From contig JAGAYN010000040.1 of NCBI GenBank assembly GCA_017940465.1, forward strand, positions 1 through 64,000: a stretch of DNA of 64,000 nucleotides, in the 5' to 3' direction. Position numbers and translations under genes: made by a program. The notes beneath the pieces were generated by a model. The model was not told the DNA's origin. It searched no databases and worked only from the letters and a program-made list of their open reading frames with translations. This document shows positions 14,379 to 59,680 of the stretch, piece by piece; position 1 is the first letter of the stretch, and every line of letters begins with the position of its first letter. This DNA is from Bacteroidales bacterium (GTDB lineage Bacteria > Bacteroidota > Bacteroidia > Bacteroidales > P3).

Positions 14379-14446
14379 TTGCAAACGGCTGGCGGATAGC
14401 GGCTTGCAGGATTCATGTTCTTCCTCTCTTCTTTATTTCTTCATCA
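14379..14446 (+). repeat. Pyrimidine-rich intergenic repeat, copy a
   Basis: Divergent copy with the left half TTGCAAACGGCTGGC, then CTTGCAGG and a pyrimidine-rich right half ending TTTATTTCTTCATC. It best matches copy h (45333-45412), which also precedes a DUF6266 gene. It lies between divergent pyrE and DUF6266 copy 1. Confidence 0.55.
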
Positions 14447-14502
14447 TTGCACAATAAACGGAAGCTGCCGCCGTTAGAAGTGGAAAAACAGGAGAAAAAA
14501 GC

Positions 14503-15261
14503 ATGGCAAAATTATCGCAGGGCATCCTCGGCCCGTTTTCGGGGAAAGTGGGCACAGTGGTAGGCTACCGCTGGAAGGGACTGGAATGTGTGCGCGGCTA
14601 CCGGCGCGAAATCCGCTACCCAAACACGGCAATGCAACAGACTGAGCGCGAGTGGTTTGTCTCCATGGTGCGCTTCGCTGCACGGGCTCGGCAGGCGTTG
14701 CTGCTGGGGCTGGCGGCGCAGGCCGCAGAGAGGCAGATGACGGAGGGGAACCTCTTCGTGAATCGCAACAAACACTGTTTCAGGAATGTAGACGGCATGT
14801 TGCAGACCGACTATGCCGCCCTCACCTTTGCCGTCGGCAGCGCGGCGCCGGTGGCGTTCCGTGCGCCGCAGGTGTCCGCGGACGGCGGGCTGAAGGTTGA
14901 TTTCGAGAAGAATACGCAGTTCTCCAGGGCCTCACCCGAGGACCGCGTCTACCTCTATGCCTACTGCCCCGAGGCCGAAGGCGGCCTGCTCTCGGCCCCT
15001 ACCGCACGCAGGACCAAGCAGTTGCGCATGGCGCTGCCCGACGCCTGGCGCGGTCGCGAGGTGCACCTGTGGGGCTTCGTGGTGGACCGCGAAGGGCGCC
15101 CCTCGCCCTCCTCCTATATCGGCTCCACGCTCCAGACGTCTCCGGAGCACCCCGCAAGCCTCGACGAGGAACGCACACCAATGGCAGTCAGCGGTTTACG
15201 CGAATCCGACAGCCTCGCCGAAGGCCACCTCGAGGCGCCGAGGCCCGACCTGCGCCCATAG
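14503..15261 (+). CDS. DUF6266-like protein, copy 1
   Basis: A 252-residue protein of unknown function, one of three paralogues in the window. The N-terminal signature QGILGPFSGKVGTVVGYRWKG is shared with the copies at 30412 and 45458, as are the EGNLFVNRNK and VYLYAYCP segments. No signal peptide or membrane helix is visible, so it is probably cytoplasmic. The N-terminal third is basic and Gly-rich, the rest beta-like. The last 45 residues (after SSYIGSTLQ) are Ser/Pro/Glu-rich and not shared. This copy has diverged most, lacking the KSAAQLxQR block of the others. The family assignment to DUF6266 is from memory of the N-terminal pattern. Confidence 0.7.
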   Translation: MAKLSQGILGPFSGKVGTVVGYRWKGLECVRGYRREIRYPNTAMQQTEREWFVSMVRFAARARQALLLGLAAQAAERQMTEGNLFVNRNKHCFRNVDGMLQTDYAALTFAVGSAAPVAFRAPQVSADGGLKVDFEKNTQFSRASPEDRVYLYAYCPEAEGGLLSAPTARRTKQLRMALPDAWRGREVHLWGFVVDREGRPSPSSYIGSTLQTSPEHPASLDEERTPMAVSGLRESDSLAEGHLEAPRPDLRP

Positions 15262-15357
15262 CCGCTCCCCCACCCTTTCCGACCCAGCAACCGACGCCCG
15301 CAAGCGAAAAAAATTGCGGGCTGGACACTTTTTTTTTACCATTTACATAAAAAACAC

Positions 15358-15365
15358 TATATTTG
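15358..15365 (+). promoter_or_regulatory. -7 element TATATTTG of hppA
   Basis: TATATTTG fits TAnnTTTG and lies 42 bases before the hppA ATG, giving a leader of about 35 nt. Upstream is an AT-rich tract; no clear -33 TTG at the standard distance. Confidence 0.5.
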
Positions 15366-15407
15366 TAAACCCGTTTTTGAAATGCAAATTAACAAAAACA
15401 ACACTAT

Positions 15408-17807: not shown

Positions 17808-17844
17808 AGACCACTCCATCCGCAAGACATCCCCAACCCCCTTT

Positions 17845-17871
17845 CCCCGACGGCCCTCCTGGCCGCCGGGG
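17845..17871 (+). terminator. GC-rich hairpin after hppA
   Basis: Arms CCCCGACGGCC and GGCCGCCGGGG pair with one mismatch around a five-base loop. Only AAATTTG follows, so termination strength is uncertain. Confidence 0.5.
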
Positions 17872-17922
17872 AAATTTGTATGGGAATGCGAAATGTTAAA
17901 AAACCGACTCCGGGAAACTTTT

Positions 17923-17954
17923 TTGCCACGCAAAGAAAAAAATTTGTAATTTTG
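17923..17954 (+). promoter_or_regulatory. Promoter of atpDC: TTG ... TAATTTTG
   Basis: A TTG at 17923-17925 lies 21 bases before TAATTTTG at 17947-17954, matching the Bacteroidota -33/-7 arrangement. The transcript would have a leader of about 30 nt before atpD. Confidence 0.55.
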
Positions 17955-17971
17955 CACCGCAATTTATATAG

Positions 17972-19724
<1,753 letters not shown>

Positions 19725-19728
<4 letters not shown>

Positions 19729-20837: not shown

Positions 20838-20864
20838 TCCACCATCCGTTCCGCCCCCCAAGGC

Positions 20865-20887
20865 AGCCCCCTCCCGAGGGGCTTTTT
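20865..20887 (+). terminator. Intrinsic terminator of the atpDC-deaminase operon
   Basis: AGCCCC and GGGGCT arms surround a seven-base loop, followed directly by a run of five T residues. Confidence 0.75.
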
Positions 20888-20894: not shown

Positions 20895-20983
20895 CCCCAG
20901 GAGGATACTATTCAAAGACGGAGAGGAGAAGAAGAGGGGAAGAAGAGGATACCTGTAACACACTGGAATCCAGCCTACTGCAT
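20895..20983 (-). repeat. Pyrimidine-rich intergenic repeat, copy b
   Basis: Read on the minus strand it contains GATGCAGTAGGCTGG, then TTACAGGTATCC, pyrimidine runs TTCTTCCCC/TCTTCTTCTCC, and ends AGTATCCTCCTGG. This is the family pattern in reverse orientation. It sits between the deaminase terminator and the RNA ligase promoter. Confidence 0.65.
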
Positions 20984-21106
20984 CCGGCCCAAAAACGGCC
21001 TTTTTCCCAGAACGGGGCAAAAAAGACACTCGGTGTCAGCAGCGGTCCTATACCGCTGTGGGTCAGCGAATTGAAAGAAAATAGCGTCCGAATGGCCAAA
21101 AAGTCG

Positions 21107-24471: not shown

Positions 24472-24530
24472 CCGGAGGATACTTTGAAGGTAAAAAGGTG
24501 AGCAAAACCTATAACATATTATACACTGAT
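24472..24530 (-). repeat. Pyrimidine-rich intergenic repeat, copy c
   Basis: On the minus strand it reads GTTATAGGTTTTGCTCACC, TTTTTACC, AAAGTATCCTCCGG. The match to copy f at 37163-37240 is close over about 40 bases. It lies between convergent genes, just left of a shared terminator. Confidence 0.7.
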
Positions 24531-24542
24531 TATCAGTAAAAT

Positions 24543-24569
24543 AAAAACGGCCCAAACTGGGCCGTTTTT
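24543..24569. terminator. Bidirectional intrinsic terminator
   Basis: AAAAACGGCCC and GGGCCGTTTTT form a perfect 11-bp stem around AAACT. A and T tracts on both sides make it work for both the peptide-binding lipoprotein (plus) and lplA (minus). Confidence 0.92.
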
Positions 24570-30132: not shown

Positions 30133-30172
30133 GGTTTTAAGATAATTTTATTTTTACCCTCTCAAGGTATGA
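30133..30172 (+). repeat. Pyrimidine-rich intergenic repeat, partial copy d
   Basis: GGTTTTAAGATAA, then TTTTTACCCTC and CAAGGTAT align with the right half of copy f (AGGTTTTGCTCACA, TTTTTACCCTCAAGGTGT). It lies in the transcribed leader of kdd copy 2. Confidence 0.5.
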
Positions 30173-30185: not shown

Positions 30186-30300
30186 CGACTTTTTTCTGAA
30201 TCCCCAACAATTTTTCTTCCTGGGCGAAATATTTTTCCCTACCGGACCGCCTGCACCCTCCGACATTTTTTTTGAAAAACTCCCGCCCTCCGCCACGAAC

Positions 30301-30366
30301 CCAACTGCCTGTCTCCCAGCACCATCCAAGTTATAGGTTTTGCTCCTCTTCATATCTTCCTGGTGA
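30301..30366 (+). repeat. Pyrimidine-rich intergenic repeat, copy e
   Basis: CCAACTGCCTGTC, then GTTATAGGTTTTGCTCCTC, and TATCTTCCTGGTG. The central 15 bases match copies c and f. It ends 46 bases before the start of DUF6266 copy 2. Confidence 0.65.
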
Positions 30367-30411: not shown

Positions 30412-31320
30412 ATGGCAATAATCGAACAGGGCATCCTTGGCGGCTTCAGCGGCCGCGTAGGCACCGTGGTGGGCTATCACCGGCACGGGGCCTGGTTCGT
30501 CCGTGCCTACCAGCCGCATATAAACGACCGCAAATCAGCGGCCCAGCTGGAGCAACGCTCCCGTTTCAAGGCGATGATCCAGTTTGCCTCGCCAGCCACG
30601 CCCCTGCTCCGCATCGGCCTCCGCCAGATGGCTGACCGCGAGGGGATTACCGAAGGCAACGTCTTCCTCAAAATCAACAAAGCCTGCTTTCAAAATCTGA
30701 ATAATCAGAATAATCCGATTACTCCGAATCCGATTACTCCGACTACTCCGATTAATCAGATTACCCCGACAATCCTCTACCCCTCCCTCCAGTTCTCCCG
30801 TGGTCCGCTGGCGGCTCCGCGCGCGTTGGAATACAGCCTCGCGGGCGCCCTCTGCACCGTCCGCTGGCAGCGCAGCGGCGGCTCCCTGACGGACACCCTA
30901 CACATCTACGCCTACTGCCCCGCCACGGGGACGGGGATATGCCTCACCGCCCGGCGCTCCCAAGGCCGCCTGCGGGCGCTCCTGCCGGAGGGCTTCGCTG
31001 GGCAGGAACTGCACGTGTGGGCCTTCGTGCAAGGGCGCGGCGGCGCCGTGTCGGGAACGGAGTATGTACGTGAAGACGAGAGCGATAGCACACATTCTGA
31101 CGCGGAGGGCTGCACCCCACTCCCCGACCTTAGCTGGGAAGCAAAAGAGAGGGTGCCCACAAGGTTCCTATCGGCGACTTTGGGGACACCCTCCTCTTCT
31201 CAAATACATAATCTACAGAGTGATAGATTATGTTCAAACTTGTTTAATTTGCATCGCACACCAGCCGCACCGAAAAACCCATGTGGCGGCTATAGTTTCT
31301 TATTGCAATCTCGGCCATAG
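30412..31320 (+). CDS. DUF6266-like protein, copy 2, with repeat insertion and run-on end
   Basis: A 302-residue paralogue. The N-terminal block EQGILGGFSGRVGTVVGYH and KSAAQLEQRSRFKAMIQFA is well kept and closely matches copy 3. Between the two halves an insertion of about 25 residues (NNPITPNPITPTTP and neighbours) is encoded by a 9-bp-period DNA repeat. The C-terminal third starts well (LHIYAYCP, LHVWAFVQ) but then loses similarity, and the frame runs 77 bases into the opposite-strand fimbrillin-like gene before stopping. The end is probably eroded. Function unknown; no signal peptide. Confidence 0.65.
   Translation: MAIIEQGILGGFSGRVGTVVGYHRHGAWFVRAYQPHINDRKSAAQLEQRSRFKAMIQFASPATPLLRIGLRQMADREGITEGNVFLKINKACFQNLNNQNNPITPNPITPTTPINQITPTILYPSLQFSRGPLAAPRALEYSLAGALCTVRWQRSGGSLTDTLHIYAYCPATGTGICLTARRSQGRLRALLPEGFAGQELHVWAFVQGRGGAVSGTEYVREDESDSTHSDAEGCTPLPDLSWEAKERVPTRFLSATLGTPSSSQIHNLQSDRLCSNLFNLHRTPAAPKNPCGGYSFLLQSRP
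30694..30768 (+). repeat. 9-bp-period repeat inside DUF6266 copy 2
   Basis: Units such as AATCAGAAT, AATCCGATT and ACTCCGACT recur every nine bases for about 75 bases. Being a multiple of three, they stay in frame and encode Asn/Thr/Pro/Ile triplets. The same unit type occurs at 46871 and 47641. Confidence 0.8.
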
Positions 31321-33061
31321 ACCCTTCGTCGAAATGAAGGGCGTAAGTGTTGCCACCATTGTTGCCAACAAATGTGGATGACCAATAGTAGCCCGTTTCA
31401 TAGCTGTAGTAGTAGTTTGATCCATTGAGACGCATACCAGGACCCGACAGCAGGACCGCACCTGCCGCCTCCATGTCGGCCCATTGCTCTGCGGTATAGG
31501 TGTTTTTTGTATAATAATCGTTGTAGGTAACACCCGGGTTGAACGATGGGCAGGAGACAGGGTTCTCCCACTTGTCGGGCAGAAGCACAAGACCCGGCCC
31601 TTTGCCACTAACCCTGGCAAGGCCAGCCTTTCCGTCACGCTGGATGAGGTAGCGCCACTCGTTTGCAGTCAGTGTGCGCCACAGGCCAGCCTGCCCGCCG
31701 CCGTTGCTGATGGCGTTATGGACCCCCCAGTCATAGTGCGAGTACTCGCCGCTGGTACCAAGGTCAAAGTCGGACGTGATCTCATAGGCGTTGAGGTTGG
31801 GCCCTGGCTGTGGCCGGTCGGCATGATAGTAGTCGTCGGTGGCTATCGTCCCATAACTGTATGGGTAATCGCATTCTACATCAGTGCCATAGCCACTGGT
31901 TCCGAAATAGAAGAGGTCTATCCAACCGCTATAGGTAGGGGAAAGTTGGCTATTGTCGCCATCGGCTACATTACCGCGATTAATGCCATCACCAGTAGTG
32001 CTACTACCGCAGTAGTCATACTGGTTGGTGGCGAAGCGCCAGGTGCCGGTAGAGGGTTGGTACTGGAGGTTGCCCTGCGAGAAATAGACGGCCTTGGTGG
32101 GGCTGACGGAGAAGGTGCCGGGCGAGGCTACATACTGGCTGGTGGGGTCGAGGCGGATGCGGGCGGTGAGCATGACATTGCGCCCGAGAGCGACAGAGGA
32201 TGTCTTGTGGGAGAAGGTGTAGCTGAACTCGTCGACCAGCGTGCCCTGCTGCGCGGGGGCGCTGCCCTTGACGGTGATGCTCAGTTCGGCCGCGCCGATG
32301 GGGCGTATGGGCACCTGCACGTCGATAATCTCGCCGGGGGCGACGGTGGCCGTCTCGTCGAAGTTGACGGTGACGGTACTGACATCGTTACCCATTGAGG
32401 TGTAGGACTCTGGATTGATGGTGGGCATATCACCGTCCATCGTAACACTGATGCCGTCGTCGGCACAGAGACGTTGGGTGTGGCATTGCACCGACACGTT
32501 CTGCAACGTGAGTTCGCGCGAGGTGCAGTTCTTCACGCGGACGAGCACGGCGGCGGTGAGGTGGCGGAACTGCATCGTGGCGCTAGATCCCATAGGGGCA
32601 TAGCCTATCATAGGCAATCCAATCACTTGGCGCCCATCGCGATAGGTGCTGGTGTAGGTGGAGGGGAGTTTGACCTTGTATGTTGAGGGAAGGGAGGTAT
32701 TGGCGGAGGTGTAGTTGCTCAAGTCACAGTTCGCAGGGTATACCCCGTAAACGTCGCTGGTTGAGGCGGAATAGTTCACAGAACTACCGTTTTGTACGGT
32801 TCTCGTTTCTTGTTGAAGTTGAGGTCCGTTTGTGCCCCTCAGATTTATTCTATACAAAGAAACAGCGTCGCCGACCACCCATTGGACGGAGGTGCCGCTG
32901 ACGGAGGTCTTGGCACCCGAGAGGTCTGTGTAGCCTTCGACGGTGAGCAGCATCTTCCCCTCCTCGGCGGGGGGCTCGGGGACAGCGGGGACGTTCTCTT
33001 TCTGGCAGGCCACAGCCATGCCTGCGGCGAGGGCCGCCAGTATAATCAGTCGCTTTTCCAT
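31244..33061 (-). CDS. Fimbrillin-like surface lipoprotein with FISUMP-like C-terminus
   Basis: A 605-residue lipoprotein from ATG 33061 with lipobox AVAC. Residues to about 310 follow the Bacteroidales fimbrillin (Mfa-like) pattern: GAKTSVSGTSVQWVVGDAVSLY, VYPAN, MQFRHLTAAVLVRVKN and an Arg-rich strand before RLDPTSQY. From about 330 the sequence changes to a domain found in Fibrobacter-type major paralogous (FISUMP) proteins: FSVSPTKAVYFSQGNLQYQ, TLTANEWRYL and the end YYWSSTFVG ... MGFSVRLVCDAN. It is likely surface-exposed, possibly a fimbrial tip or adhesin. A longer frame to 33103 is less likely because it precedes the signal peptide. A 56-residue small ORF lies 28 bases upstream. Confidence 0.8.
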   Translation of the reverse strand: MEKRLIILAALAAGMAVACQKENVPAVPEPPAEEGKMLLTVEGYTDLSGAKTSVSGTSVQWVVGDAVSLYRINLRGTNGPQLQQETRTVQNGSSVNYSASTSDVYGVYPANCDLSNYTSANTSLPSTYKVKLPSTYTSTYRDGRQVIGLPMIGYAPMGSSATMQFRHLTAAVLVRVKNCTSRELTLQNVSVQCHTQRLCADDGISVTMDGDMPTINPESYTSMGNDVSTVTVNFDETATVAPGEIIDVQVPIRPIGAAELSITVKGSAPAQQGTLVDEFSYTFSHKTSSVALGRNVMLTARIRLDPTSQYVASPGTFSVSPTKAVYFSQGNLQYQPSTGTWRFATNQYDYCGSSTTGDGINRGNVADGDNSQLSPTYSGWIDLFYFGTSGYGTDVECDYPYSYGTIATDDYYHADRPQPGPNLNAYEITSDFDLGTSGEYSHYDWGVHNAISNGGGQAGLWRTLTANEWRYLIQRDGKAGLARVSGKGPGLVLLPDKWENPVSCPSFNPGVTYNDYYTKNTYTAEQWADMEAAGAVLLSGPGMRLNGSNYYYSYETGYYWSSTFVGNNGGNTYALHFDEGSMAEIAIRNYSRHMGFSVRLVCDAN

Positions 33062-33089
33062 ATGGCAATTCGGTTGTTTGCGGTGAGAC

Positions 33090-33260
33090 TTAGAACCATC
33101 CATCGTTGTTGCCCCAGTTGTATCCGTTCAAGTCGTCGCGCCCCTCGACACTGCTGGTGGGGAGGGATGGTCCGCTGGTGGCAAAGCCGCTCTCGGCGGC
33201 AAACAGAGCTACCTGCAGCCCGGGCGGGCTGTAGGGGCGTTTCTGGGTTGTTTTGTCCAT
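33090..33260 (-). CDS. Small acidic ORF upstream of the fimbrillin-like gene
   Basis: A 56-residue frame from ATG 33260 to TAA 33090. It begins MDKTTQKRPYSPPGLQVALF and ends YNWGNNDGWF. The pattern of basic start, PxxxVxxF segment and Gly/Asn/Trp-rich acidic end matches short proteins often seen directly before Bacteroidales surface lipoprotein genes; they have no known function. It has good coding character and no overlap with other genes. Co-transcription with the fimbrillin-like gene is likely. Confidence 0.65.
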   Translation of the reverse strand: MDKTTQKRPYSPPGLQVALFAAESGFATSGPSLPTSSVEGRDDLNGYNWGNNDGWF

Positions 33261-35143: not shown

Positions 35144-36177
35144 AAAGAGGGCATTTGCTGGCTGAGGCAATGGAACGAGCCGAGGCCCCAGATGATATCG
35201 GTCGAGTCGATGCCGACCACCTCGCGGTCGGGGAAGCAGGCCTCCAGTATGTAGGCCGCCTCGTTGTCGGTGAGGCAGCGGTAGGTGGGGAAGATGACCT
35301 TGCCGTTGGCGATGTAGAAGTTGGCATAGGAAGCCGGAAGACGCTGATTGTCATAGAAAACCACATCGGGCATGGGCAGTTCGACAATGGTGGGCTGCTT
35401 GCCGTTGGCCAAGCGACAGCGCTTGAGCATACGGAGGTTCTTTTGGAGGGGCTCGTAGTTCTCGTCCCAAGCGTCCTCTTCCACCACGGTGAGGATGGTG
35501 TCCTCGGAGACGAAACGCGTCAGGTCGTCGACATGTCCGTCGGTGTCATCGCCTACGATTCCGTCGCCCAGCCAGATGATATTCTCAACACCATAATAGT
35601 CTCGAAGATAGCCTTCTATTTGGTCTTGATTCAAATGGGGATTGCGATTGGGATTGAGCAAGCAGGAGGTGGTGGTGAGCAGGTCGCCGCAACCATTGAC
35701 ATCGATGCTGCCGCCCTCCATAACGATTCCGGGCTCGAAGAGTTGCACTTCGGGCATCAGCTCGTGTATGTGCACAGGCACCTCGGTATCAAGCTCGTAG
35801 GGATATTTCCCGCCCCAGGCGTTGTGGTTCCAGTTGACGATGGCACGCTTGGTGGCATCCTGACGGTTGAGCAGGAAGGCGGGGCCGTGGTCGCGGCACC
35901 AGGCATCGTTGCTTGGAATAACATGCAGTCTGATATTCTGCATATTGCACCCGATATGCTCCAACTCCGATTTAACATGGTGGAGCATCTGCTCGTCATC
36001 CACATTGATATGCACTGCCTCGTCCTCGGCGAGGGTTTTCACAAAGAGGTGATACGAGGGATAAATCGTTTCAATCTTGCCCGGCCACGAGTCGGGATTC
36101 TTGGGATAGGTGAGCCAGGTACCTTCATGGCACGCCCACTCGGCGGGCATATAGTAGCCTAATTCTTTGGGAGTCAT
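35140..36177 (-). CDS. aguA: Agmatine deiminase
   Basis: A 345-residue enzyme that converts agmatine to N-carbamoylputrescine and ammonia. Family blocks are seen: the start PAEWACHEGTWLTYP, NDAWCRDHGPAFL, MEGGSIDVNG, GDDTDGHVDDLTRFV, and the catalytic Cys near the end in GLGSFHCLSQQ. It shares one base (TGATG) with the stop of the upstream N-carbamoylputrescine amidase and is coupled to the S41 protease after it. Together with aguB it makes putrescine from arginine-derived agmatine. Confidence 0.95.
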   Translation of the reverse strand: MTPKELGYYMPAEWACHEGTWLTYPKNPDSWPGKIETIYPSYHLFVKTLAEDEAVHINVDDEQMLHHVKSELEHIGCNMQNIRLHVIPSNDAWCRDHGPAFLLNRQDATKRAIVNWNHNAWGGKYPYELDTEVPVHIHELMPEVQLFEPGIVMEGGSIDVNGCGDLLTTTSCLLNPNRNPHLNQDQIEGYLRDYYGVENIIWLGDGIVGDDTDGHVDDLTRFVSEDTILTVVEEDAWDENYEPLQKNLRMLKRCRLANGKQPTIVELPMPDVVFYDNQRLPASYANFYIANGKVIFPTYRCLTDNEAAYILEACFPDREVVGIDSTDIIWGLGSFHCLSQQMPSL

Positions 36178-37040
36178 CAGTCTATGTAACGTTTGGTGAT
36201 GGGGGCGTAGGAGTCGATGCGGCGGTCGCGGAGGTAGGGCCAGTGGCGGCGGTAGTGGTCGGTCTGGTCGAGGTCGAGTTCCTCGATGTGGAGCACCTCC
36301 TCGAGGTAGGGGGCCTGGTAGAGCACGCGACCGAAGGCATTGGTGATGAACGAGCCGCCCCAGAACTGCATCCCCCCTTCCCTACCGGTGCGGTTGACGG
36401 AGACGACGGGGACGCCGTTGGCGACTGCGTGGGCGCGCTGGATGGTCTGCCAGGCATCGTACTGCTCGCGGTTGTCGTGCTCGTTCTGACGCACATCCCA
36501 GCCGATGGCCGTGGGGTAGAAGAGTATCTGTGCGCCCATGAGGGCGGTGATGCGGCTGGCTTCGGGGTACCACTGGTCCCAGCAGATGAGGACGCCGATG
36601 GTGGCGAAGCGGGTCTTGAAGACCTTGTAGCCGAGGTCGCCGGGGGTGAAGTAGAACTTCTCGTAGTAGCCCGGGTCGTCGGGGATGTGCATCTTGCGGT
36701 ATTTGCCGAGGTAGGAGCCGTCGGCATCGATGACGGCGGTGGTGTTGTGGTAGAGCCCTTCGGCGCGTTTCTCGAACATCGAGCAGACGAGAACCACGCC
36801 CAACTCTTTGGCCAATGCCATGAAATGCTGCGTGGTGGGTCCATCGGGGATGGGCTCAGCGAGGGAGAAGTTCTGATAGCGCTCCTCGTCGCAAAAATAG
36901 AGCGATGCGAAGAGCTCCTGCAAGCAGATGATTTGTGCCCCACCTGCTGCCAGTTGGCGTACCTTTTCGGTGTAGCGCTCAATGTTTTGCGCCTTGTCTT
37001 CCACGCAACTCATCTGCGCGATTCCTACCTTTACTTTCAT
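36177..37040 (-). CDS. aguB: N-carbamoylputrescine amidase
   Basis: A 287-residue nitrilase-family enzyme that hydrolyses N-carbamoylputrescine to putrescine, CO2 and ammonia. The Glu-Lys-Cys triad lies in CLQELFAS, YRKMHIPDDPG and VLICWDQWYPE. Length and the DQWYPEASR context match AguB. A long frame continues upstream to 37724, but ATG 37040 sits 25 bases after a TATTTTTG promoter element and matches the family start. One-base overlap with aguA. Confidence 0.95.
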   Translation of the reverse strand: MKVKVGIAQMSCVEDKAQNIERYTEKVRQLAAGGAQIICLQELFASLYFCDEERYQNFSLAEPIPDGPTTQHFMALAKELGVVLVCSMFEKRAEGLYHNTTAVIDADGSYLGKYRKMHIPDDPGYYEKFYFTPGDLGYKVFKTRFATIGVLICWDQWYPEASRITALMGAQILFYPTAIGWDVRQNEHDNREQYDAWQTIQRAHAVANGVPVVSVNRTGREGGMQFWGGSFITNAFGRVLYQAPYLEEVLHIEELDLDQTDHYRRHWPYLRDRRIDSYAPITKRYID

Positions 37041-37072: not shown

Positions 37073-37162
37073 CGAAATATTTTTGATACCGTGGAAAAAT
37101 CATGTGCAACGGGGCGCGAATTTCCTGCGCTGAAAACGCTTTCCAGGCCGATTTTCGGAGGA

Positions 37163-37240
37163 ACACAACAGGCTGGCGAACAGTTACTTGCAAGCTATAG
37201 GTTTTGCTCACATTTTTACCCTCAAGGTGTCTTCCGGGAG
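37163..37240 (+). repeat. Pyrimidine-rich intergenic repeat, copy f
   Basis: ACACAACAGGCTGGCGAAC, then CTTGCAAGCTATAGG, TTTTGCTCACA, TTTTTACCCTCAAGG and TCTTCCGG. It is one of the fullest copies and joins the two halves seen in others. It lies right of the aguB promoter and left of the decarboxylase terminator. Confidence 0.75.
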
Positions 37241-41966: not shown

Positions 41967-42374
41967 TTATTTGCAGCAGTATTCGGTCAGCACGCCGAGG
42001 GTGCTCTTGGGGTGCAGGAAGCCGATGTTGAGCTGTTCCGCGCCGGGGCGGGACTTCTCGTCGATGAGGCGCACGCCCTTCTCCTTGGCCTCGCCGAGGG
42101 CCTGGTCGGTGTTCTCCACGGCGAATGCGATGTGGTGCATGCCACCCTTGCCGCCGTTCTTCTCGATAAACGAGGCGATGGTGCTCTCGGGCGACGTGGG
42201 CTCCAGAAGCTCTATCTTGACGTCGCCGCAACGGAAGAAAGCGGTCTTGACCTTTTGATCCACCACTTCTTCAATGGCGTAGCACTTGAGGCCCATCACG
42301 TCTTCCCAGTAGCGGATGGCCTCGTCGAGGTTGGTCACGGCAATGCCGATGTGTTCAATGTGTGAAGGTGTCAT
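41967..42374 (-). CDS. mce: Methylmalonyl-CoA epimerase
   Basis: A 135-residue VOC-fold enzyme from ATG 42374 (MTPSHIEHIGIAV). Metal ligands and family blocks include HIEHIGIAV, KIELLEP, GGMHHIAFAV and the terminal LTEYC. It interconverts (R)- and (S)-methylmalonyl-CoA in the succinate-propionate pathway. A frame extension to 42416 (MINNNNIKKQ) is unlike the family and was not used. First gene of the operon behind a TATATTTG promoter. Confidence 0.95.
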   Translation of the reverse strand: MTPSHIEHIGIAVTNLDEAIRYWEDVMGLKCYAIEEVVDQKVKTAFFRCGDVKIELLEPTSPESTIASFIEKNGGKGGMHHIAFAVENTDQALGEAKEKGVRLIDEKSRPGAEQLNIGFLHPKSTLGVLTEYCCK

Positions 42375-42459: not shown

Positions 42460-42592
42460 CAAACTTTTTTACATATAACATAAAAATGTTTTCAACACCG
42501 CTTCGCATCCGCCTCCAATCCCCCTCCCGAACCGCTCCGGAAAAGGGCGCGGATTTTTATTCCAAACCTGCCGGAAGGGCACTTTTTGCCCC

Positions 42593-42670
42593 CTTTGCAA
42601 CTGCTTGTCGCACAGCATTCTGTTGCCTTCCCCTTTTTCTCCCCTTTTTACCATCTTCGTATCTGCCTGC
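42593..42670 (+). repeat. Pyrimidine-rich intergenic repeat, copy g
   Basis: CTTTGCAACTGCTTG, then GTTGCCTTCCCC, TTTTTCTCCCC, TTTTTACC and TCTTCGTATCTGCCTG. It matches copy j closely. It lies between mce and the MATE terminator. Confidence 0.75.
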
Positions 42671-45245: not shown

Positions 45246-45332
45246 GTTCAATGGGTTTTGTGTTTCACTTCCGTAACAAAAAAATTGCCGTTTTATTGCC
45301 TTGACAAGCAAAAAAGGTGCCAATCCAGCCCC

Positions 45333-45412
45333 GATGCAACAGGCTGGCAACTAACATCTTATAAGCATCCCCTTTTTCTCTCCTTTTTATCCTGTTCGTA
45401 TCCACATACTAA
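45333..45412 (+). repeat. Pyrimidine-rich intergenic repeat, copy h
   Basis: GATGCAACAGGCTGGCAAC, then CTTATAAGCATCCCC, TTTTTCTCTCC, TTTTTATCC and TTCGTATCCACA. It lies between divergent deg-type and DUF6266 genes, ending 46 bases before the latter. Confidence 0.75.
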
Positions 45413-45457: not shown

Positions 45458-46234
45458 ATGGCAAAAATCGATCAAGGCATCCTGGGCGGCTACAGCGGCC
45501 GCATCGGCAGCGTGGTGGGCTACTACCGCAAGGGCAAATGGTGCGTGCGCGCCTACCAGCCCACCATCAACGACGCCAAGAGCGCGGCGCAGCTGCAGCA
45601 ACGCTCCATCTTCAAGGCGATGATCCAGTTCGCCTCGCGCACGCTGGCTCCTATCCGGTTGGGAATGAAGCAGATATCCGACATGGAAGAAATCACCGAG
45701 TGCAACCTATTCATGCGCATGAACAGTCAGAATTTCAAGCACATAGACGGCACAGTGCAAATCGTCTACAGCGGACTCCAATTCTCGATGGGCGACCTCC
45801 CGGGCGTGGATTTCCGCAGCCTCCAGGTGGAGGCAGACGGACGCGTAACGGTTGATTATGAGCCCAATAGAATATCGTCGCGTGCCAAGATGGAGGACGA
45901 GGTGCACGTCTATGCCTACCTGCCCTCCGAGGGCCTCGGCGTGCTCTGCGCCCCCGCCAGCCGCCGCAGCAAGCAGACGGCATTCATGCTGCCCGACGGG
46001 TGGGCCTCGCAAGATGTTCATTTCTACGGATTTACACTCGCTTCCGACGGATGCGCCTCGGAGACCACCTACCTCGGCTCCACCCTCGAGCCGTTGTCGC
46101 AACCCGCTGAGAACAAATCATCTATCGAAAACAAAAATCCCCTGATTGAATATGAAGAAAGGCAAACTGATCCTGTTTCCGGTCCCCATCGGAGCGGAGG
46201 AGACAACCCTCTCACTGCCAGAGGGAAACCATGA
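45458..46234 (+). CDS. DUF6266-like protein, copy 3
   Basis: A 258-residue paralogue of unknown function. It has the cleanest family pattern: DQGILGGYSGRIGSVVGYYRKG, AYQPTINDAKSAAQLQQRS, FKAMIQFA, then VHVYAYLPSEG and DVHFYGFTLASDG, and TTYLGSTLE. No signal peptide. The conserved part ends near residue 210; the remaining tail (ENKSSIENKN onward) overlaps the RsmI-like gene by 89 bases in another frame, so the tail is probably not selected. An upstream repeat copy is shared with the other two copies. Confidence 0.75.
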   Translation: MAKIDQGILGGYSGRIGSVVGYYRKGKWCVRAYQPTINDAKSAAQLQQRSIFKAMIQFASRTLAPIRLGMKQISDMEEITECNLFMRMNSQNFKHIDGTVQIVYSGLQFSMGDLPGVDFRSLQVEADGRVTVDYEPNRISSRAKMEDEVHVYAYLPSEGLGVLCAPASRRSKQTAFMLPDGWASQDVHFYGFTLASDGCASETTYLGSTLEPLSQPAENKSSIENKNPLIEYEERQTDPVSGPHRSGGDNPLTARGKP

Positions 46235-46871
46235 CCTGCTGGGCACATGCCGCACCTTTATCGTGGAGGAGCTGCGCACGGCGCGGCGATTCCTGAAAAA
46301 GGCGCGCTACCCCTACCCTATCGACGAGACAGAATTCTTCATCCTCAACGAGCATACGACGCACGGCGAGATCGGGGGCTACCTGGACGCCATCGAGCGA
46401 GGCGACAACATCGGCCTGCTCTCCGAGGCCGGGCTGCCCTGCGTGGCCGACCCGGGGGCGATGATTGTGCGCGTGGCGCAACGGCGTGGTATCGAGGTGG
46501 TTCCGCTCGTGGGCCCCTCGTCGCTCATGCTCGCCCTGATGGCCAGTGGGCTGAACGGACAGAGTTTCGCCTTCAACGGCTACCTGCCCGTGGACAAAAG
46601 CCAGAGGGCCAGCGCCATACGCCGTCTCGAAGAACGCGCCCGCCGCGAGCGGCAGACCCAACTCTTCATCGAAGCGCCCTACCGCAACAACCAACTGCTG
46701 GAGGCGCTATGCACTGTGCTCCAGCCTGATACCGACATCTGCGTAGCTTGCGACCTCACGCTCCCCTCGCAGTATATCCGCACCCTCCCCGCCAAGCAAT
46801 GGCAAAAAGAGCGCGAGAAAACCAACCTCCACAAACGCAACACCGTCTTCCTGATAGGCACAGCCGGGTAA
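46146..46871 (+). CDS. RsmI-related SAM-dependent methyltransferase
   Basis: A 241-residue tetrapyrrole-methylase-fold enzyme related to RsmI, which 2'-O-methylates C1402 of 16S rRNA. Seen are IPIGAEE-like opening (FPVPIGAEETT), IGLLSEAGLPCVADPGAMIVRVAQ, VPLVGPSSLMLALMASG and FIEAPYRNNQLLEAL. It is shorter than full RsmI and belongs to the brief Bacteroidota form whose target is not certain. The second in-frame ATG at 46152 (MKKGKLILFP) is the more usual start. Confidence 0.85.
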   Translation: MNMKKGKLILFPVPIGAEETTLSLPEGNHDLLGTCRTFIVEELRTARRFLKKARYPYPIDETEFFILNEHTTHGEIGGYLDAIERGDNIGLLSEAGLPCVADPGAMIVRVAQRRGIEVVPLVGPSSLMLALMASGLNGQSFAFNGYLPVDKSQRASAIRRLEERARRERQTQLFIEAPYRNNQLLEALCTVLQPDTDICVACDLTLPSQYIRTLPAKQWQKEREKTNLHKRNTVFLIGTAG

Positions 46872-46947
46872 ATCGGAGTAATCGGAATAATCAGAATAAT
46901 CAGAATAATCAGATTAATCAGATTAATCAGACTAATCAGAAAAATCA
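46871..46947 (+). repeat. 9-bp-period repeat (AATCAGnnn) after the RsmI-like gene
   Basis: About eight units AATCGGAGT, AATCAGAAT, AATCAGATT run in tandem at nine-base steps directly after the stop codon and before the four-helix-bundle gene. Confidence 0.85.
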
Positions 46948-49890: not shown

Positions 49891-50178
49891 TTACACCGAG
49901 GGTTGAATTGGGGTTATGCCCACCTCCACCTCGTCGCCGAAGGTCTTCCCTATCGCCGTGCGCACGGCTTTGGGGATGCCGAGGATGTAGCAGATGTTGC
50001 CCTCGGCGTCCTTCACGCCCATGTTGACCACGCTGCCGCTGTATGGATAGCCGTCGAACGTAGCCTCCACCTTCAGCCGCCCCTTGCCGTACAGGGCGCG
50101 GATGTCAACAGGCACAACGATATACGCGGCGTCCATGTCGCCGTTGCGGATGACGGTGGCTGTGAATCGGTGGGTCAT
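49891..50178 (-). CDS. DUF1905 domain protein
   Basis: A 95-residue protein from ATG 50178 (MTHRFTATVIRNGDMDAAYIVVP). The YIVVPVDIRALYGKGRLKVEATFDG and ILGIPKAVRTAIGKTFGDEVEV pattern is the DUF1905 beta-barrel fold. Function unknown. The start overlaps the upstream stop as ATGA. A longer frame to 50256 would begin inside the upstream gene and was not used. Confidence 0.85.
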   Translation of the reverse strand: MTHRFTATVIRNGDMDAAYIVVPVDIRALYGKGRLKVEATFDGYPYSGSVVNMGVKDAEGNICYILGIPKAVRTAIGKTFGDEVEVGITPIQPSV

Positions 50179-50666
50179 AACAACCTTATAGCAAGTCCTA
50201 CAAAACAACAAATGGCTGTCGCTGCCGGCACCATTATTATTATTATCGCCGTCCAAAGGTTCTTATCCGTCGTTCTGTCGCGAATCACACCGTTCGGCCA
50301 CACTGCCTTTTGGCCGACAACGTCGTAATACGTCAAACCGTGTTTCCTTGCGATTGAATAGACCTCGGTCAGAACGTTTCTCTCATGGACATCTGTGAAT
50401 GCCAGTTCAATCCAGATGGCGTCTTGGGAGAATCCGTAATCCGAGGCATAGTATTTCTCCGAATCAAATTCAACGTCCGTAGCCGCAAATTCTCCGTTAA
50501 GTGGACGGACAATATCTTTGAGTTCCAAGAAGAAGTCTTGCAGCCGCCGCGAGGAAACCGCATGATTCTGGCCATCGGCATACTCCGACATTCCGTCATA
50601 GCGTTCCTTGTATGACTTGAAGAACAGCTTTTTCTTGGTGTCAACTATGGCAACCAGGTATCCCAT
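50175..50666 (-). CDS. Hypothetical protein with C-terminal membrane helix
   Basis: A 163-residue protein I do not recognise. The N-terminus is soluble (MGYLVAIVDTKKKLFFKSYK) and mixed alpha/beta. One transmembrane helix lies at the very C-terminus (LWTAIIIIMVPAATAICCFVGLAI), so it may be tail-anchored with the bulk in the cytoplasm. The gene is more AT-rich than its neighbours. It is placed between a pseudouridine synthase (four-base gap) and DUF1905 (ATGA overlap), so it is co-translated with both. Confidence 0.65.
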   Translation of the reverse strand: MGYLVAIVDTKKKLFFKSYKERYDGMSEYADGQNHAVSSRRLQDFFLELKDIVRPLNGEFAATDVEFDSEKYYASDYGFSQDAIWIELAFTDVHERNVLTEVYSIARKHGLTYYDVVGQKAVWPNGVIRDRTTDKNLWTAIIIIMVPAATAICCFVGLAIRLL

Positions 50667-50670: not shown

Positions 50671-51627
50671 CTATATCATTTTGAGGTAGCCGACTTCCTT
50701 GTCGGTGAGTTCGCGCCAGCGGCCGCGGGGGAGGTCCTTCTTGGTGAGGCCGGCGAAGACGGTGCGGTCGAGCTTGTGCACCTCGTAGCCGAGGGTCTCA
50801 AACAAGCGGCGAACGATGCGGTTGCGGCCGCTGTGCAGCTCGACGCCGACGATGCGCTTGTCGATGGTGCTGCCGGTGGCGGCGTACTGAATGTCGTCCA
50901 CGTGCATGGGGCCGTCCTCGAGCTCGATGCCGTCGAGGAGCTTCTTCATGTCCTCCTTGGTGACGGGCTTGTTGAGCTCGACCTGGTAGATTTTGTAGAC
51001 CTGCGTGGAGGGGTGCGTGAGGCGCTTGGCGAGCTCGCCGTCGTTGGTGAAGAGGAGCAGGCCGGTGGTGGCGCGGTCGAGGCGGCCGACGGGATAGATG
51101 CGCTCGGCGCAGCAGCCGTCCATGAGCATCATGACGGTGCGGCGCTCCTGCGGGTCGTCGGTAGTGGTGATGAAGCCTTTGGGCTTGTTGAGGAGGAAGT
51201 AGCGCGGGCGCTCGGAACGGAGCTTCTCGCCGCCATACTGCACCTCGTCGCCGGGCATGACCTGGTAGCCCATCTCGGTAACCACGCGGCCGTTGACCTT
51301 GACGCTGCCGGCGGCGATGAGCTCGTCGGCCTCGCGGCGCGAGCAGATGCCGGCATGGGCAATGTACTTGTTGAGGCGCATGGCGCCCTCGGGGTGCTCC
51401 TGCTTGGGGCGCTGCCTGATGGGCCTCGCTCCACCTCGGTCGCGTTGCCCACTGACAGGCCTGTTGCCGGCAGGGCGGGCTGTCCTGGTTTCTTTGGTTT
51501 TACTAGTTTCTCTAGTTTTACTAGTCGAACTAGTTTTACTAGAATAACTAGCCTTACCACCCTTTCCAGCTCTGCCGGGCTCTTTATTCTCTTTCTGCGG
51601 TTTGCGGTTGTCTTTCTTCTGTATCAT
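50671..51627 (-). CDS. rRNA pseudouridine synthase, RsuA/RluB family
   Basis: A 318-residue enzyme. An S4 RNA-binding domain starts at MRLNKYIAHAGICSRREADELI (about residue 82). The catalytic Asp is in VGRLDRATTGLLLFTNDGEL. It isomerises a specific uridine in 23S or 16S rRNA; which one cannot be told. The first 80 residues are a Lys/Ser/Thr/Glu-rich tail, part of which (KTSSTSKTRETSKTKETRT) is written by a 9-bp-period CTAG repeat. The start may lie further in, since it overlaps the upstream gene by 44 bases. Confidence 0.88.
   Translation of the reverse strand: MIQKKDNRKPQKENKEPGRAGKGGKASYSSKTSSTSKTRETSKTKETRTARPAGNRPVSGQRDRGGARPIRQRPKQEHPEGAMRLNKYIAHAGICSRREADELIAAGSVKVNGRVVTEMGYQVMPGDEVQYGGEKLRSERPRYFLLNKPKGFITTTDDPQERRTVMMLMDGCCAERIYPVGRLDRATTGLLLFTNDGELAKRLTHPSTQVYKIYQVELNKPVTKEDMKKLLDGIELEDGPMHVDDIQYAATGSTIDKRIVGVELHSGRNRIVRRLFETLGYEVHKLDRTVFAGLTKKDLPRGRWRELTDKEVGYLKMI
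51494..51553. repeat. 9-bp-period CTAG repeat inside the pseudouridine synthase gene
   Basis: CTAG recurs every nine bases six times (TTTACTAGT, TTCTCTAGT, CGAACTAGT and so on). The array stays in frame and encodes Ser/Thr/Lys triplets in the disordered N-terminal tail. CTAG is generally rare in bacterial genomes, which makes the array stand out. Confidence 0.85.
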
Positions 51628-52093
51628 TGTCTTGTTGGTTTTTCCATTCTTCCAAGTCTTTCATGGCGCGGTAGTGGCCACCGAAGTGCATCACGTAGGG
51701 CCAGGTGTACTCCTTCTCCTGGTATTTCAGGAACTTCTCCACTTCGCGCACCAGCATCAGCAGCACGCCGAGCTTGCGCTGGTAGAGCCACTTGAGCGAG
51801 TCAACATCATGCCTGCAGGCCAGGGCGAAGCGCAGGTTGACGGGCGTCAGGCCGCGGCGCACCCAGTCGATGGCCTGCCCGTCGCCGTCGCAGGCGTTGC
51901 TGAGGATGGCCAGCCAGGCGTAGTCGTGCTTGAAGAGCCACACCATGGCGTCGTCGTCGCCCCGGATGGCGTTGCTGAAGGCGGCCAACTCGGGCTTTGT
52001 CTGCACCAGCACCTTGAAGAAATCGACGCGTCCGCTGACGCTCTTCACCAGCGCCAGCAGCAGCTTCACGTCGTATTGCTCCAAGCCTTTCAC
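51584..52093 (-). CDS. Conserved-looking hypothetical protein, non-ATG start
   Basis: About 169 residues from GTG 52093 (VKGLEQYDVKLLLALV); a TTG at 52084 is another choice. The only in-frame ATG upstream (52222) would require coding through repeat copy i and is rejected. The protein is helical with near-repeats: FSNAIRGDDDAMVWLFKHDYAWLAILSNACDGDGQAIDWV then FALACRHDVDSLKWLYQRKL, resembling tandem helical-repeat segments. I recall similar unannotated proteins in Bacteroidales but know no function. Its C-terminus overlaps the pseudouridine synthase by 44 bases. Confidence 0.6.
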   Translation of the reverse strand: MKGLEQYDVKLLLALVKSVSGRVDFFKVLVQTKPELAAFSNAIRGDDDAMVWLFKHDYAWLAILSNACDGDGQAIDWVRRGLTPVNLRFALACRHDVDSLKWLYQRKLGVLLMLVREVEKFLKYQEKEYTWPYVMHFGGHYRAMKDLEEWKNQQDNDTEERQPQTAERE

Positions 52094-52723
52094 CTGCTTT
52101 CCATAACTTGGAAACGGGCAGTTTATTGTGCGCCGGTTGCAATAAATAAGGTACGGCAGAACAGACTCTCCATTTTGGCCAAAAAAAGAGGCGAGAGAAC
52201 GCCCCCAACAGGCAAAATGCAACAGACTGACAATAAGGACGAAAAAGCGTTCCCCTTTTTCTCCCCTTTTTCTCTCCTTTTTCTCCTCTTCCTATGCTCT
52301 TGGAGACACCGTACCCTCCCCTGGCGGAGCTGCTGCATTTTTTTTTGCTGTCGGAACTCATGATGGGGGCAATAAAACTGCCGCCGCGCCGTTATGGAGA
52401 CAAAAAAAGGCACCGAATGACATGACACGATAACATAGCAAAGACATAGACCGAGCCGGACGCTCTCGATTTTCTCCTGTAGGACAGCTGGTTACTTTTC
52501 TTTTGGAGAGGGAATGGGACGCGGAGGGTTCACGCCTTGCGGCGTGGATTGTTTCGCAGACTTGTTTTCTCCAAAGGTTCAACCAGCACCTCCTACAGAA
52601 ACAGGCAAACCGACACGAAAACAGTTCGCGCCTCTCTTTTTTTTTGCTGGCGGCCTTGCGCCCCAAAGGGATTCTGCGCACTTGACACCAAAAACTAAAA
52701 AAAAACAAAAACTAAAAAAAAAG
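52094..52723. other. Long non-coding stretch before the outer-membrane receptor
   Basis: No convincing gene in 630 bases. The left half holds repeat copy i with an expanded pyrimidine tract of 11-base units. The right half has G- and A-rich tracts and ends in an A-rich leader (AAAACTAAAAAAAAAC). No clear TAnnTTTG was found. It separates divergent genes and may hold regulatory sites for the receptor. Confidence 0.5.
52215..52310 (+). repeat. Pyrimidine-rich intergenic repeat, copy i, expanded
   Basis: AATGCAACAGACTGAC, then three near-perfect 11-base units of CCCCTTTTTCT type, CTCCTCTTCCTATGC. The pyrimidine part is longer than in other copies, indicating slippage or unit duplication. Confidence 0.7.
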
Positions 52724-55156: not shown

Positions 55157-55176
55157 AAGCCCTCGCGTCGACAGAC

Positions 55177-55208
55177 TTATCCGCCGTGCACGATTGCCCG
55201 GCGGATAA
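55177..55208. terminator. Inverted repeat between convergent receptor and pheT genes
   Basis: TTATCCGCCG and CGGCGGATAA form a perfect 10-bp stem around a 12-base loop, flanked by short AT stretches. It may serve both convergent genes, although no long T-tract is present. Confidence 0.6.
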
Positions 55209-55213
55209 ATTTG

Positions 55214-57694: not shown

Positions 57695-57721
57695 AATTCT
57701 TAAACTCTTGGTTATTAACTC

Positions 57722-59407
57722 TTACTTCACTTTTGCCCAGCTGTCCTTGAGGGTGCAGGTGCGGTTGAAGACGGGGCGGGCGGGGGTGCTGTCGGGGTCG
57801 GTGCAGAAGTAGCCCATGCGCTCGAACTGGTAGCGGGCGATGCCGTCGGCGAACTGGCCGTGGTCGGTGTCGGCGAGGGCGGGCTCGCACTTGGCGGCGA
57901 CCACGCGGAGGCTGTCGGGGTTGAGGTTGTCGAGGAAGGTTTTTCCTTCGGGGGCCTCGTCGGGGGCCTCGGTGGCGAAGAGGCGGTCGAAGAGGCGCAC
58001 CTCGGCGTCGACGGCGTGCTGCGCGCTGACCCAGTGGATAGTGCCCTTCACCTTGCGCCCGTCGGGGGCGTCGCCACCGCGCGTGGCGGGGTCGTAGGTG
58101 CAGTGGATGCAGGTGATGCGGCCCTCGGCGTCCTTCTCGACGCTCTGCGCGGTGACGAAGTAGGCGTAGCGCAGACGCACCTCCTGGCCGATGGCCATGC
58201 GGAAGTATTTCTTGGGGGCCACCTCCATGAAGTCCTCGCGCTCGATATAGAGCTCGCGGCCGAAGGGTACCTCGCGGGTGCCGTCGGCCTCGCATTCGGG
58301 GTTATTGACGGCGGTGAGCATCTCGGTCTGCCCTTCGGGATAGTTGTCGATGACCACCTTCACGGGGTCTAAAACGGCCATGCGCCTCTGCGCCACCTTA
58401 TTGAGATGCTCGCGAAGCGAGAACTCAAGGAGGCCGTAGTCGATGATGTTGTCGCGCTTGGCGACGCCGATGCGGTCGCAGAAGGCGCGGATGCTCTCGG
58501 GCGTGTAGCCGCGGCGGCGGAAGCCGCAGATGGTGGGCATGCGGGGGTCGTCCCAGCCGCTGACGTGGTTTTCCTTCACCAGCTGCAGCAGTTTGCGCTT
58601 GGACATGACGGTGTAGTTGATGTTGAGGCGGGCGAACTCGTACTGGTGCGAGGGCCAGATGCCAAGCTGCTCGATGAACCAGTCGTACAAAGGGCGGTGT
58701 ATATCGAACTCCAACGTGCAGATACTGTGTGTGATATGCTCGATGGAATCGGACTGGCCGTGGGCGTAGTCGTACATGGGGTAGATGCACCAGCGGTCGC
58801 CCGTGCGGTGGTGGTGGGCGTGGAGGATGCGGTACATGATGGGGTCGCGGAACATCATGTTGGGGTGCGCCATGTCGATCTTGGCGCGGAGCACCTTGGC
58901 GCCGTCGGGAAATTCGCCGGCACGCATACGCTGGAAGAGGTCGATGTTCTCCTCTACGGAGCGGTTGCGGTAGGGGCTGTCGGTGCCGGGGGTGGTTACC
59001 GTGCCGCGGCCGGCACGGATTTCGTCCAGCGTCTGGTCGTCCACGTAGGCCAACCCCTTGCGTATCAACTCGCAGGCCCATTCGTAAAGTTGCTCGAAAT
59101 AGTCGGAGGCGTAGTGCATCTCGGCCCAGTCGAAGCCGAGCCAACGGATGTCCTGCTGGATGGAATCGACATACTCGGTGTCCTCTTTGACGGGGTTCGT
59201 GTCGTCGAAGCGGAGGTTGGTCTTGCCACCGTACTTCTTGGCGAGGCCGAAGTTGATGCAGATGCTCTTGGCGTGGCCGATGTGGAGGTAGCCGTTGGGC
59301 TCGGGGGGGAAGCGGGTCTGTATGGCGGTGCAGCGGCCTTCGCTCAGGTCGCGCTCAATGATTTCTTCCAGAAAGTTGAGCTGGCGCTCGGTGGTGTTTT
59401 CTTCCAT
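57722..59407 (-). CDS. glnS: Glutaminyl-tRNA synthetase
   Basis: A 561-residue class I synthetase. The HIGH region [21 protein letters not shown] is near residue 31-51 and the KMSK-like loop [11 protein letters not shown] near 268. NLRFDDTNP and the C-terminal anticodon-binding beta-barrels ending [10 protein letters not shown] agree with GlnRS, not GluRS. Direct charging of tRNA-Gln is usual in Bacteroidota. A TATCTTTG promoter element lies about 55 bases upstream. It leads an operon with pheT. Confidence 0.97.
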
Positions 59408-59460
59408 AACGGGTTGAATGATTAATAATTATGTACAATATATATAGTGGTTTCAGGCAA

Positions 59461-59468
59461 CAAAGATA
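59461..59468 (-). promoter_or_regulatory. -7 element TATCTTTG of glnS-pheT
   Basis: On the minus strand TATCTTTG gives a leader of about 47 nt. No -33 TTG at the standard distance. Confidence 0.55.
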
Positions 59469-59589
59469 GCAAATTTTCCCCAATCGCGACCGAAAATATT
59501 GCCATTTTTAAGCAAAACACTGTGTATCAGCATGGTATAAAACCCGCACATTTTTTGGGAAAAACAGCCGGAAACCCCGATTTTTGCCC

Positions 59590-59680
59590 ATTTGCAACTG
59601 GCTGATTCCTAAGAGCTTGTTACCTTCCCCTTTTTCTCCTCTTTTTCTCAACTTCGTATCCTCCTGGTGTGCTCCCGGGG
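59590..59680 (+). repeat. Pyrimidine-rich intergenic repeat, copy j
   Basis: ATTTGCAACTGGCTG, then CTTGTTACCTTCCCC, TTTTTCTCCTC, TTTTTCTC and CTTCGTATCCTCCTGGTG. It is one of the most complete copies, between divergent glnS and the LEA-type lipoprotein gene. Confidence 0.8.

Follow-up and report, generated by a model that had tools for sequence, protein, structure and literature searches.

Dispersed intergenic elements in a Bacteroidales genome join an imperfect dyad to a degenerate tandem array of 11-bp period

Positions 1 to 64,000 of contig JAGAYN010000040.1 of a Bacteroidales bacterium (GenBank assembly GCA_017940465.1) form the stretch analyzed here, called the window, and hold nine noncoding intergenic copies of one repeat, each made of an imperfect dyad of about 30 bp and, at a constant distance after it, a row of degenerate tandem units with an 11-bp period. 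The window is contig C37 of the assembly (G000 in our numbering; 2.24 Mb, 56 contigs), and the nearest named relatives of its GlnRS come from uncultured gut and rumen Bacteroidales, including Candidatus Colimorpha pelethequi (86% identity). Copies were scored with R1, a sequence-only model of 70 columns built from 24 hand-picked seed copies, and with R2, a dyad-only model of 36 columns; the E-values of both come from a shortened calibration. Three copies precede genes of the DUF6266 family (PF19781), all on the + strand: copy a (14375–14441, +, 43.5 bits with R1; dyad-only match 14379–14410), which is also upstream of a minus-strand phosphoribosyltransferase gene, precedes 14503–15261 (1.1e-13); copy e (30295–30363, +, 62.0 bits), a dyad with an array of TATAGGTTTTGCTC type whose homology to three other loci begins at 30300–30302, precedes 30412–31320 (6.1e-10); and copy h (45330–45397, +, 53.5 bits) lies between an HtrA-like minus-strand gene and 45458–46234 (6.9e-14). 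Copy b (20921–20986, −, 49.0 bits), with a period-11 array found by Tandem Repeats Finder (TRF) at 20922–20949 and its dyad at 20952–20982, is upstream of a gene starting at 21147 (+), and copy c (24484–24549, −, 40.4 bits) occupies a convergent gap. Upstream of minus-strand genes lie copy f (37160–37226, +, 52.5 bits; gene 36177–37013), for which G001, a congener, has a copy at the orthologous place, copy g (42591–42658, +, 49.6 bits; gene 41967–42338) and copy i (52216–52278, +, 40.9 bits; gene 51584–52093), with an array of TCCCCTTTTTC units and a TRF period-11 call at 52251–52290. Copy j (59588–59655, +, 47.4 bits) separates the minus-strand GlnRS gene from an LEA_2-domain gene at 59731 (+). 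R2 recovered seven of the nine, missing c and i at E ≤ 2. The original prediction had counted about ten noncoding copies; nine were matched by R1 and all nine are noncoding, and the partial copy proposed at 30133 was not found by R1.

A profile search of the genome and its relatives, as the original prediction had suggested, returned a dispersed family. R1 gave at least 100 matches in G000 at E ≤ 1e-3, 24 of the 100 being seeds and 76 not, and at least 113 at E ≤ 10, a lower bound from scoring 150 of 922 first-look candidates. The window copies scored E = 9e-17 to 5e-10 against the whole genome, values that are partly circular because all nine are among the seeds. With stricter filters, 24 congeners gave 81 (G001), 75 (G004), 12 (G007) and 1 (G023) matches at E ≤ 1e-3 and none in the remaining 20, and only one of 16 genomes of the same order gave a match, a weak one. 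Stretches L303 and L312–L318 were excluded from every count. Per-column conservation was computed on those 50 of the 70 best copies that score at least 38 bits, 24 of which may be seeds. The columns left of R1, which the model does not use, carry 0.28–0.53 bits per column at −40 to 0, compared with 0.01–0.07 in the same copies from column 120 on, and the conserved zone reaches about 40 bases beyond R1 on both left and right. Because this left-flank conservation lies outside the modelled columns, T-tracts are not the sole basis of the family. The shared plan drawn in the original prediction survives in part: its tail, TTCGTATCCTCCTGG, occurs ten times in the window at up to 3 mismatches against a chance mean of 1.5 (several of these outside the copies), whereas TGCAACNGGCTG alone, with 34 occurrences against 26.7 by chance, is significant only together with neighbouring bases. 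A coding peptide was considered and rejected, translation of three frames of 70 copies giving no clear codon signal by eye.

The left half of the element is an imperfect palindrome, TTGCAACAGGCTG-n5-CAGCATCTTGCAG, within a dyad of approximately TTGCAACAGGCTGATTTCCAGCATCTTGCAG; a second, weaker divergent arm was often seen by eye nearer the left gene. Across 60 copies the arms show no covariation (70.9% paired, 71.3% when shuffled), RNAalifold predicted no pairs on the full alignment, and Rfam gave no hits in the window at gathering score. Because the arms do not covary and the alignment yields no predicted pairs, we prefer to read the left half as a DNA dyad and not as RNA. The right half is built of degenerate units, the two T5 runs noted in the original prediction being in fact two of them. 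Copy j reads TTCCCCTTTTT / CTCCTCTTTTT / CTCAACTTCGT, the commonest type in G000 reads CATCATCTTCT / TCCCCTCTTCT / TCCCCTCTTCG, and a TATAGG type reads AGGTTTTGCTC / CTCTTTTTATC; an inverted array half, judged by eye, is mostly absent from this genome. Over 69 copies the mean self-identity at lag 11 is 0.462, compared with 0.274 after shuffling, and the other lags from 2 to 33 all stay at or below 0.40, the best of them being lag 3 at 0.399. The z of 32 at lag 11 is inflated, the copies being homologous; periodicity in each copy is therefore not independent, and independent evidence comes from congeners with different unit sequences, described below. The seed alignment (A2; ambiguous seeds L071, L049 and L054 excluded) joins 24 copies over 70 columns with no gap, one genomic match (C32:92293–92369) spends 77 bases on 66 model positions, an excess of 11 bases, and the fixed spacing of dyad and array was also seen by eye in 70 printed copies. 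Eleven base pairs are about one helical turn. An unbiased TRF sample covered 462 kb, made up of the window plus twenty stretches; 40 kb came from two outgroup genomes, which had no such array. Merged arrays numbered 37 at period 11, 4 at period 22, 29 at period 7 and 4 each at periods 10 and 13, compared with 3 of period 11 in a Markov control. The surroundings of GlnRS in 80 diverse genomes (836 kb) gave only two rows of period 11 and two of period 22. Neither the dyad nor the 11-bp periodicity was part of the original prediction; both are added by this analysis.

Sequence context was examined for the best 70 of the 100 matches at E ≤ 1e-3, with approximate gene calls from a codon-usage gene finder. 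Divergent gaps hold 32 of these copies, 24 lie in co-directional gaps upstream of the dyad-side gene and 3 the opposite way round, 6 are in convergent gaps and 5 have an unknown neighbour. Thus in 24 of 27 co-directional gaps the copy is upstream of the dyad-side, or left, gene (p about 5e-5). This count replaces the raw 59 of 68 left genes on the minus strand, which overstates the orientation because divergent gaps are uninformative. The right neighbour shows no such rule (34 minus, 33 plus, 3 unknown), and strand clustering of the copies by contig was not significant (p = 0.09). The left gene starts at a median of 173 bases from the model's left edge (n = 59), and by eye the copies mostly lie beyond that gene's TAnnTTTG promoter or beyond a second motif, ACAATAAA-N12-GCGTTA. 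The latter, once considered as the 3′ end of the element, is instead a separate genome-wide promoter-like motif, with 224 occurrences at up to 3 mismatches (85 in the reversed control), 19 of them exact; it mostly stands shortly before an open reading frame (ORF) (30 loci, by eye; e.g. 14451–14476 in the window and C10:34888) and is possibly a second promoter class beside TAnnTTTG.

Within the window, 9 of 11 intergenic gaps of at least 200 bp hold a copy and 0 of 6 gaps of 80–199 bp do (bases 1–1382 uncounted); of the two copy-free long gaps, one contains a 163-aa ORF (50175–50666) missed by the gene finder. All five divergent gaps hold a + copy, as had been stated, but most long gaps of any type carry a copy, so the divergent bias is mostly gap length. 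Of the inverted copies, b obeys the common rule of lying upstream of the dyad-side gene and c is an exception. The distance of 46–57 bases to the downstream start holds only roughly, the interval from model end to start being 48 (e), 60 (h), 61 (a), 75 (j) and 235 (i). A dispersed family in a regulatory-looking position accords with the regulatory half of the original prediction, but a leader of the downstream + gene is not its general form, the copies in 24 of 27 cases being upstream of the left gene.

We searched 18 genomes with R2 at E ≤ 1, a cut at which chance alone should yield about one hit per genome and only the first few therefore stand out: G009 gave 22, G016 20, G022 and G024 10 each, twelve other congeners 1–7, and two outgroup genomes 3 and 2. 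About 113 R2 hits were obtained outside G000, and the 30 whose locus was fetched were all tested for periodicity. In the 66 bases after the dyad, lag 11 was the best lag in 15 of 30 and reached z ≥ 3 in 14 (two of these 14 in G007, which carries the R1 family too); on the other side, in the 66 bases preceding the dyad, only 2 of 30 reached z ≥ 3, and the three outgroup hits tested had no lag-11 signal. The units are specific to the species: CCAACTCCTTA in G009, TCAACTCTTAC and CCAACACCGTA in G002, TTGTACAGTAC in G024 and CCATCTTCTTA in G007. By eye, several of these arrays, in G002, G009, G023 and G024, run on as their own reverse complement. At four loci (L359 and L376 in G023, L365 and L383 in G008) the dyad forms an inverted repeat that is almost perfect, AAAATGCAACACGCTG..CAGCGTGTTGCATTT; it is matched on both strands and has no 11-bp array at z ≥ 3.

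Gaps beside the orthologous left gene at copies g, h, i and j were compared among relatives with a lag test in sliding windows, shuffled sequences serving as the control. Lag 11 was best and significant in three of six relatives at j (G001, G009, G007; not G004, G023, G002), three of six at h (G001, G002, G023; not G004, G007, G009) and four of seven at g (G007, G009, G023, G002; not G001, G015, G016). An 11-bp array of other units thus stands in 10 of 19 relative gaps at these loci, about half. Short TATAGG-type copies in G004 at j, where G000 has the CCTTTTT type, and in G001 at g are visible by eye and fail the test. For six G001 or G004 copies that adjoin an ortholog of a G000 left gene, a G000 copy adjoins that gene too, in a comparison that could only detect positives. 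Gaps without the element also occur, in G002 at j and in Ca. Colimorpha. The latter carries 8-bp intergenic arrays of TCAACAGT and CTTCAAAT units (L157, positions 4127, 6744 and 8270; 11.7 kb read).

DUF6266 genes are themselves multicopy, with 26 matches in G000 at E ≤ 1e-3 and 30 at E ≤ 1, some of which are parts of one gene, and their counts are highest in the main carriers of the repeat (39 in G001, 24 in G004), followed by the noncarrier G002 with 18. Copy e and three other copies (C10:59542, C42:453 and C51:19258) are 87–95% identical from the dyad through the DUF6266 start, with left flanks that cannot be aligned; the four duplicates begin no more than a few bases from the dyad's left edge, so that the unit has been copied from the dyad on. 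The matches at C42 and C51 reach contig ends, which leaves the right end undefined. At locus h the DUF6266 gene is present in G000, G001 and G004 and absent from G002, G007 and G023, and at locus g G009 has one after its array (PF19781 9e-6, partial ORF) where G000 has none. A copy lies within 400 bp upstream of 12 of the 26 G000 matches, compared with 0.23 expected, a biased overlap in that 11 of the 12 copies are seeds and six seeds were picked by looking upstream of DUF6266. Free of this bias, a copy precedes a DUF6266 gene in three of nine cases in the window and three of 15 pattern hits, and on these counts we rejected the idea that the element belongs to DUF6266. Upstream of DUF6266 genes in other congeners, lag 11 was best at P ≤ 0.01 in 7 of 20 regions, all seven with at least 30/55, a cut passed by 5 of 179 control pieces, mostly coding; in G000 5 of 27 upstream regions passed the lag-11 test, and repeats of 7 or 9 bp were best in many.

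Several features of DUF6266 loci were noted in passing. Tandem 9-bp arrays of AATCAGAAT / TCCGATTAC units lie within or beside the genes (30714–30769 and 46871–46947 in the window; also L064), and in G002 9-bp arrays of GGTCCTTAA units precede them (L388, L390). Among loci L043–L068 many DUF6266 ORFs extend well past the domain end, some into a neighbouring gene (30412–31320 overlaps 31244–33103), and several matches lie at contig ends. By eye, the genes at L387, L392, L401 and L045 have a different leader, GTCGTCGCGACCGACA or a close variant, and no dyad. Right after the DUF6266 stop at L056 stands a sequence that resembles, by its motif, a cobalamin riboswitch. A search of open-access papers found none on this multicopy gene family.

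Taken together, these data lead us to favour, tentatively, a protein-binding platform of dyad and iterons upstream of promoters whose iterons turn over in concert. The element would be a composite cis-acting DNA site, an imperfect palindrome with several tandem 11-bp units, placed upstream of a gene's promoter with the dyad towards the gene. A protein dimer may bind the dyad and from there seed cooperative occupancy of one face of the array, much like CarH on its tandem 11-bp operators, and this binding might set local transcription, insulation or nucleoid structure. Within a genome the units would be homogenized by recombination or, as we infer, gene conversion, so that unit sequence turns over while the site stays, and DUF6266 genes may ride on the system, units that start at the dyad being copied to several sites. 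Several observations weigh against this reading. The R2 hits in congeners are weak (best E 4e-4), with most congeners at 1–7 and few above chance, and 16 of the 30 tested lack a lag-11 signal. No significant array was found in 9 of the 19 relative gaps at g, h and j, nor in any of eight relatives at locus i, where G004 had lag 11 as its best lag at P = 0.67. The placement count depends on a crude gene finder that misses DUF6266 genes, the inverted second array half seen by eye in some congeners could instead point to a hairpin role, and the protein that would bind array or dyad is postulated.

A nonautonomous mobile element, of the kind of a miniature inverted-repeat transposable element (MITE) or HUH-like, is possible, if rather unlikely. 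The dyad would be its precise left end, the array would be internal, DUF6266 would sometimes be cargo, and insertion would occur upstream of promoters. The four DUF6266 units that start at the dyad with unalignable left flanks fit this best, and the mobile half of the original prediction stands to that extent. The patchy DUF6266 gene at locus h, the strong differences in copy number between congeners, the relative gaps without any array and the resemblance of dyad plus 11-bp direct repeats to the pMV158 origin, with its hairpin and 11-bp "bind" repeats (excerpts of PMC9943647), are also consistent with it. Set against these are the copies that G001 and G004 share with G000 at orthologous sites, a right end that cannot be defined with two of the four units reaching contig ends, and the failure to find a cognate mover. 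Inspection by eye of the sequence flanking 70 copies revealed no terminal inverted repeats or target duplications, no systematic search being made. Genes of the REP-associated tyrosine transposase (RAYT) type do not fill the role. R2 found no dyad in 18 RAYT regions (52 kb) at E ≤ 1, and the printed flanks of 12 RAYT genes (5 of 6 in G000; L320 from a wrongly called start) show GC-rich, REP-like hairpins instead, as alongside the genes at L319, L320, L321, L324 and L328. Nor are Y1_Tnp matches clearly correlated with the carriers (6 in G000, 7 in G001, 2 in G004, 3 in G007 and 0–4 in 12 other congeners searched). IS91/Helitron-like and RepB-type movers were rejected as well, since neither Y2_Tnp (PF04986) nor Rep_OBD had a match in G000 or the 15 congeners searched.

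The platform reading can be extended to a genus-wide, satellite-like DNA upstream of promoters, in which a conserved dyad would carry an 11-bp iteron array whose unit changes jointly at tens to hundreds of sites per species, as though it followed an array-binding protein that evolves rapidly, or an unknown array-writing activity; DUF6266 genes would be cargo for which the sites serve as landing pads. We regard this extension as unlikely. Neutral minisatellites, slippage arrays of a lineage-typical unit length spread and kept similar by gene conversion and without function, are distinctly unlikely. Degenerate units, the presence of tandem 7-, 8- and 9-bp arrays in this genus and other bacteria, and the nine orthologous gaps without a significant array would suit them. 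Against them stand the constant dyad-to-array distance, present in the seed alignment and seen by eye in the 70 printed copies, the orientation and promoter-upstream rule, and the differently spelled arrays in 10 of the 19 orthologous gaps. An RNA-level element, in which hairpin arrays would serve as terminators or mRNA-end structures, is improbable: transcripts of the forward-plus-inverted arrays of G002, G009, G023 and G024 could form long hairpins, but in G000 the inverted half is mostly absent, no conserved pairs or dyad covariation were found, and a terminator-like hairpin of the co-directional upstream gene may already precede the array (e.g. C28:5756).

The genome also holds a second family of 11-bp arrays (GGTATCC.CTA), followed by a conserved ACTTCGACTGAGAACCGATATGA. 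TRF reports it in the window on the + strand at 1266–1289 (CCGGTAAGTAT / GGTATCC units, period 11, 2.2 copies) and at 7203–7232 (GTAGGTATCCC units, period 11, 2.7 copies), and it recurs at L076, L080 and L022.

If the platform reading is right, the element would represent, in bacteria, the equivalent of satellite DNA under concerted evolution, placed at promoters, the site being kept and its spelling replaced. It would offer a natural experiment on the co-evolution of binding arrays with their protein, the dyad would give a direct handle to fish for that protein, and the DUF6266 gene family would gain a context. Our literature search, confined to open-access papers, found no description of 11-bp tandem repeats in Bacteroidetes or Bacteroidales, and among the records listed by broader searches no title or opening of an abstract described such an element, which does not establish absence from print. 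Cyanobacterial STRR-type short tandem repeats also form intergenic arrays of one lineage-typical unit length; their unit is 7 bp, whereas here it is 11 bp and tied to a dyad at fixed spacing. MITEs are likewise short, noncoding and dispersed, but here neither terminal inverted repeats nor target duplications were noticed by eye, some copies share orthologous sites, and the array turns over. To our knowledge, repetitive extragenic palindromic (REP) sequences and bacterial interspersed mosaic elements (BIMEs) carry no 11-bp array. With their RAYT they resemble the element in having about 100 dispersed intergenic copies with a palindrome (excerpts of PMC2817692), and differ in that the palindrome here is not shared with the flanks of RAYT genes. 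The double-strand origin of pMV158, served by RepB, likewise pairs a hairpin-forming inverted repeat with tandem 11-bp repeats, three in that case, but it belongs to a plasmid and places its repeats 84 bp from the nick site (excerpts of PMC9943647), and here Rep_OBD is without a match in the genomes searched. CarH and CarA, B12-dependent MerR-type repressors, act at carotenoid promoters on the unit nnnnTnnACAn, and their operators, like the array here, are tandem degenerate 11-bp direct repeats near promoters, bound in their case on one DNA face (excerpts of PMC9304148). The element shares with them tandem 11-bp direct repeats near a promoter, and differs in its roughly 100 sites per genome, its flanking dyad and its species-specific units.

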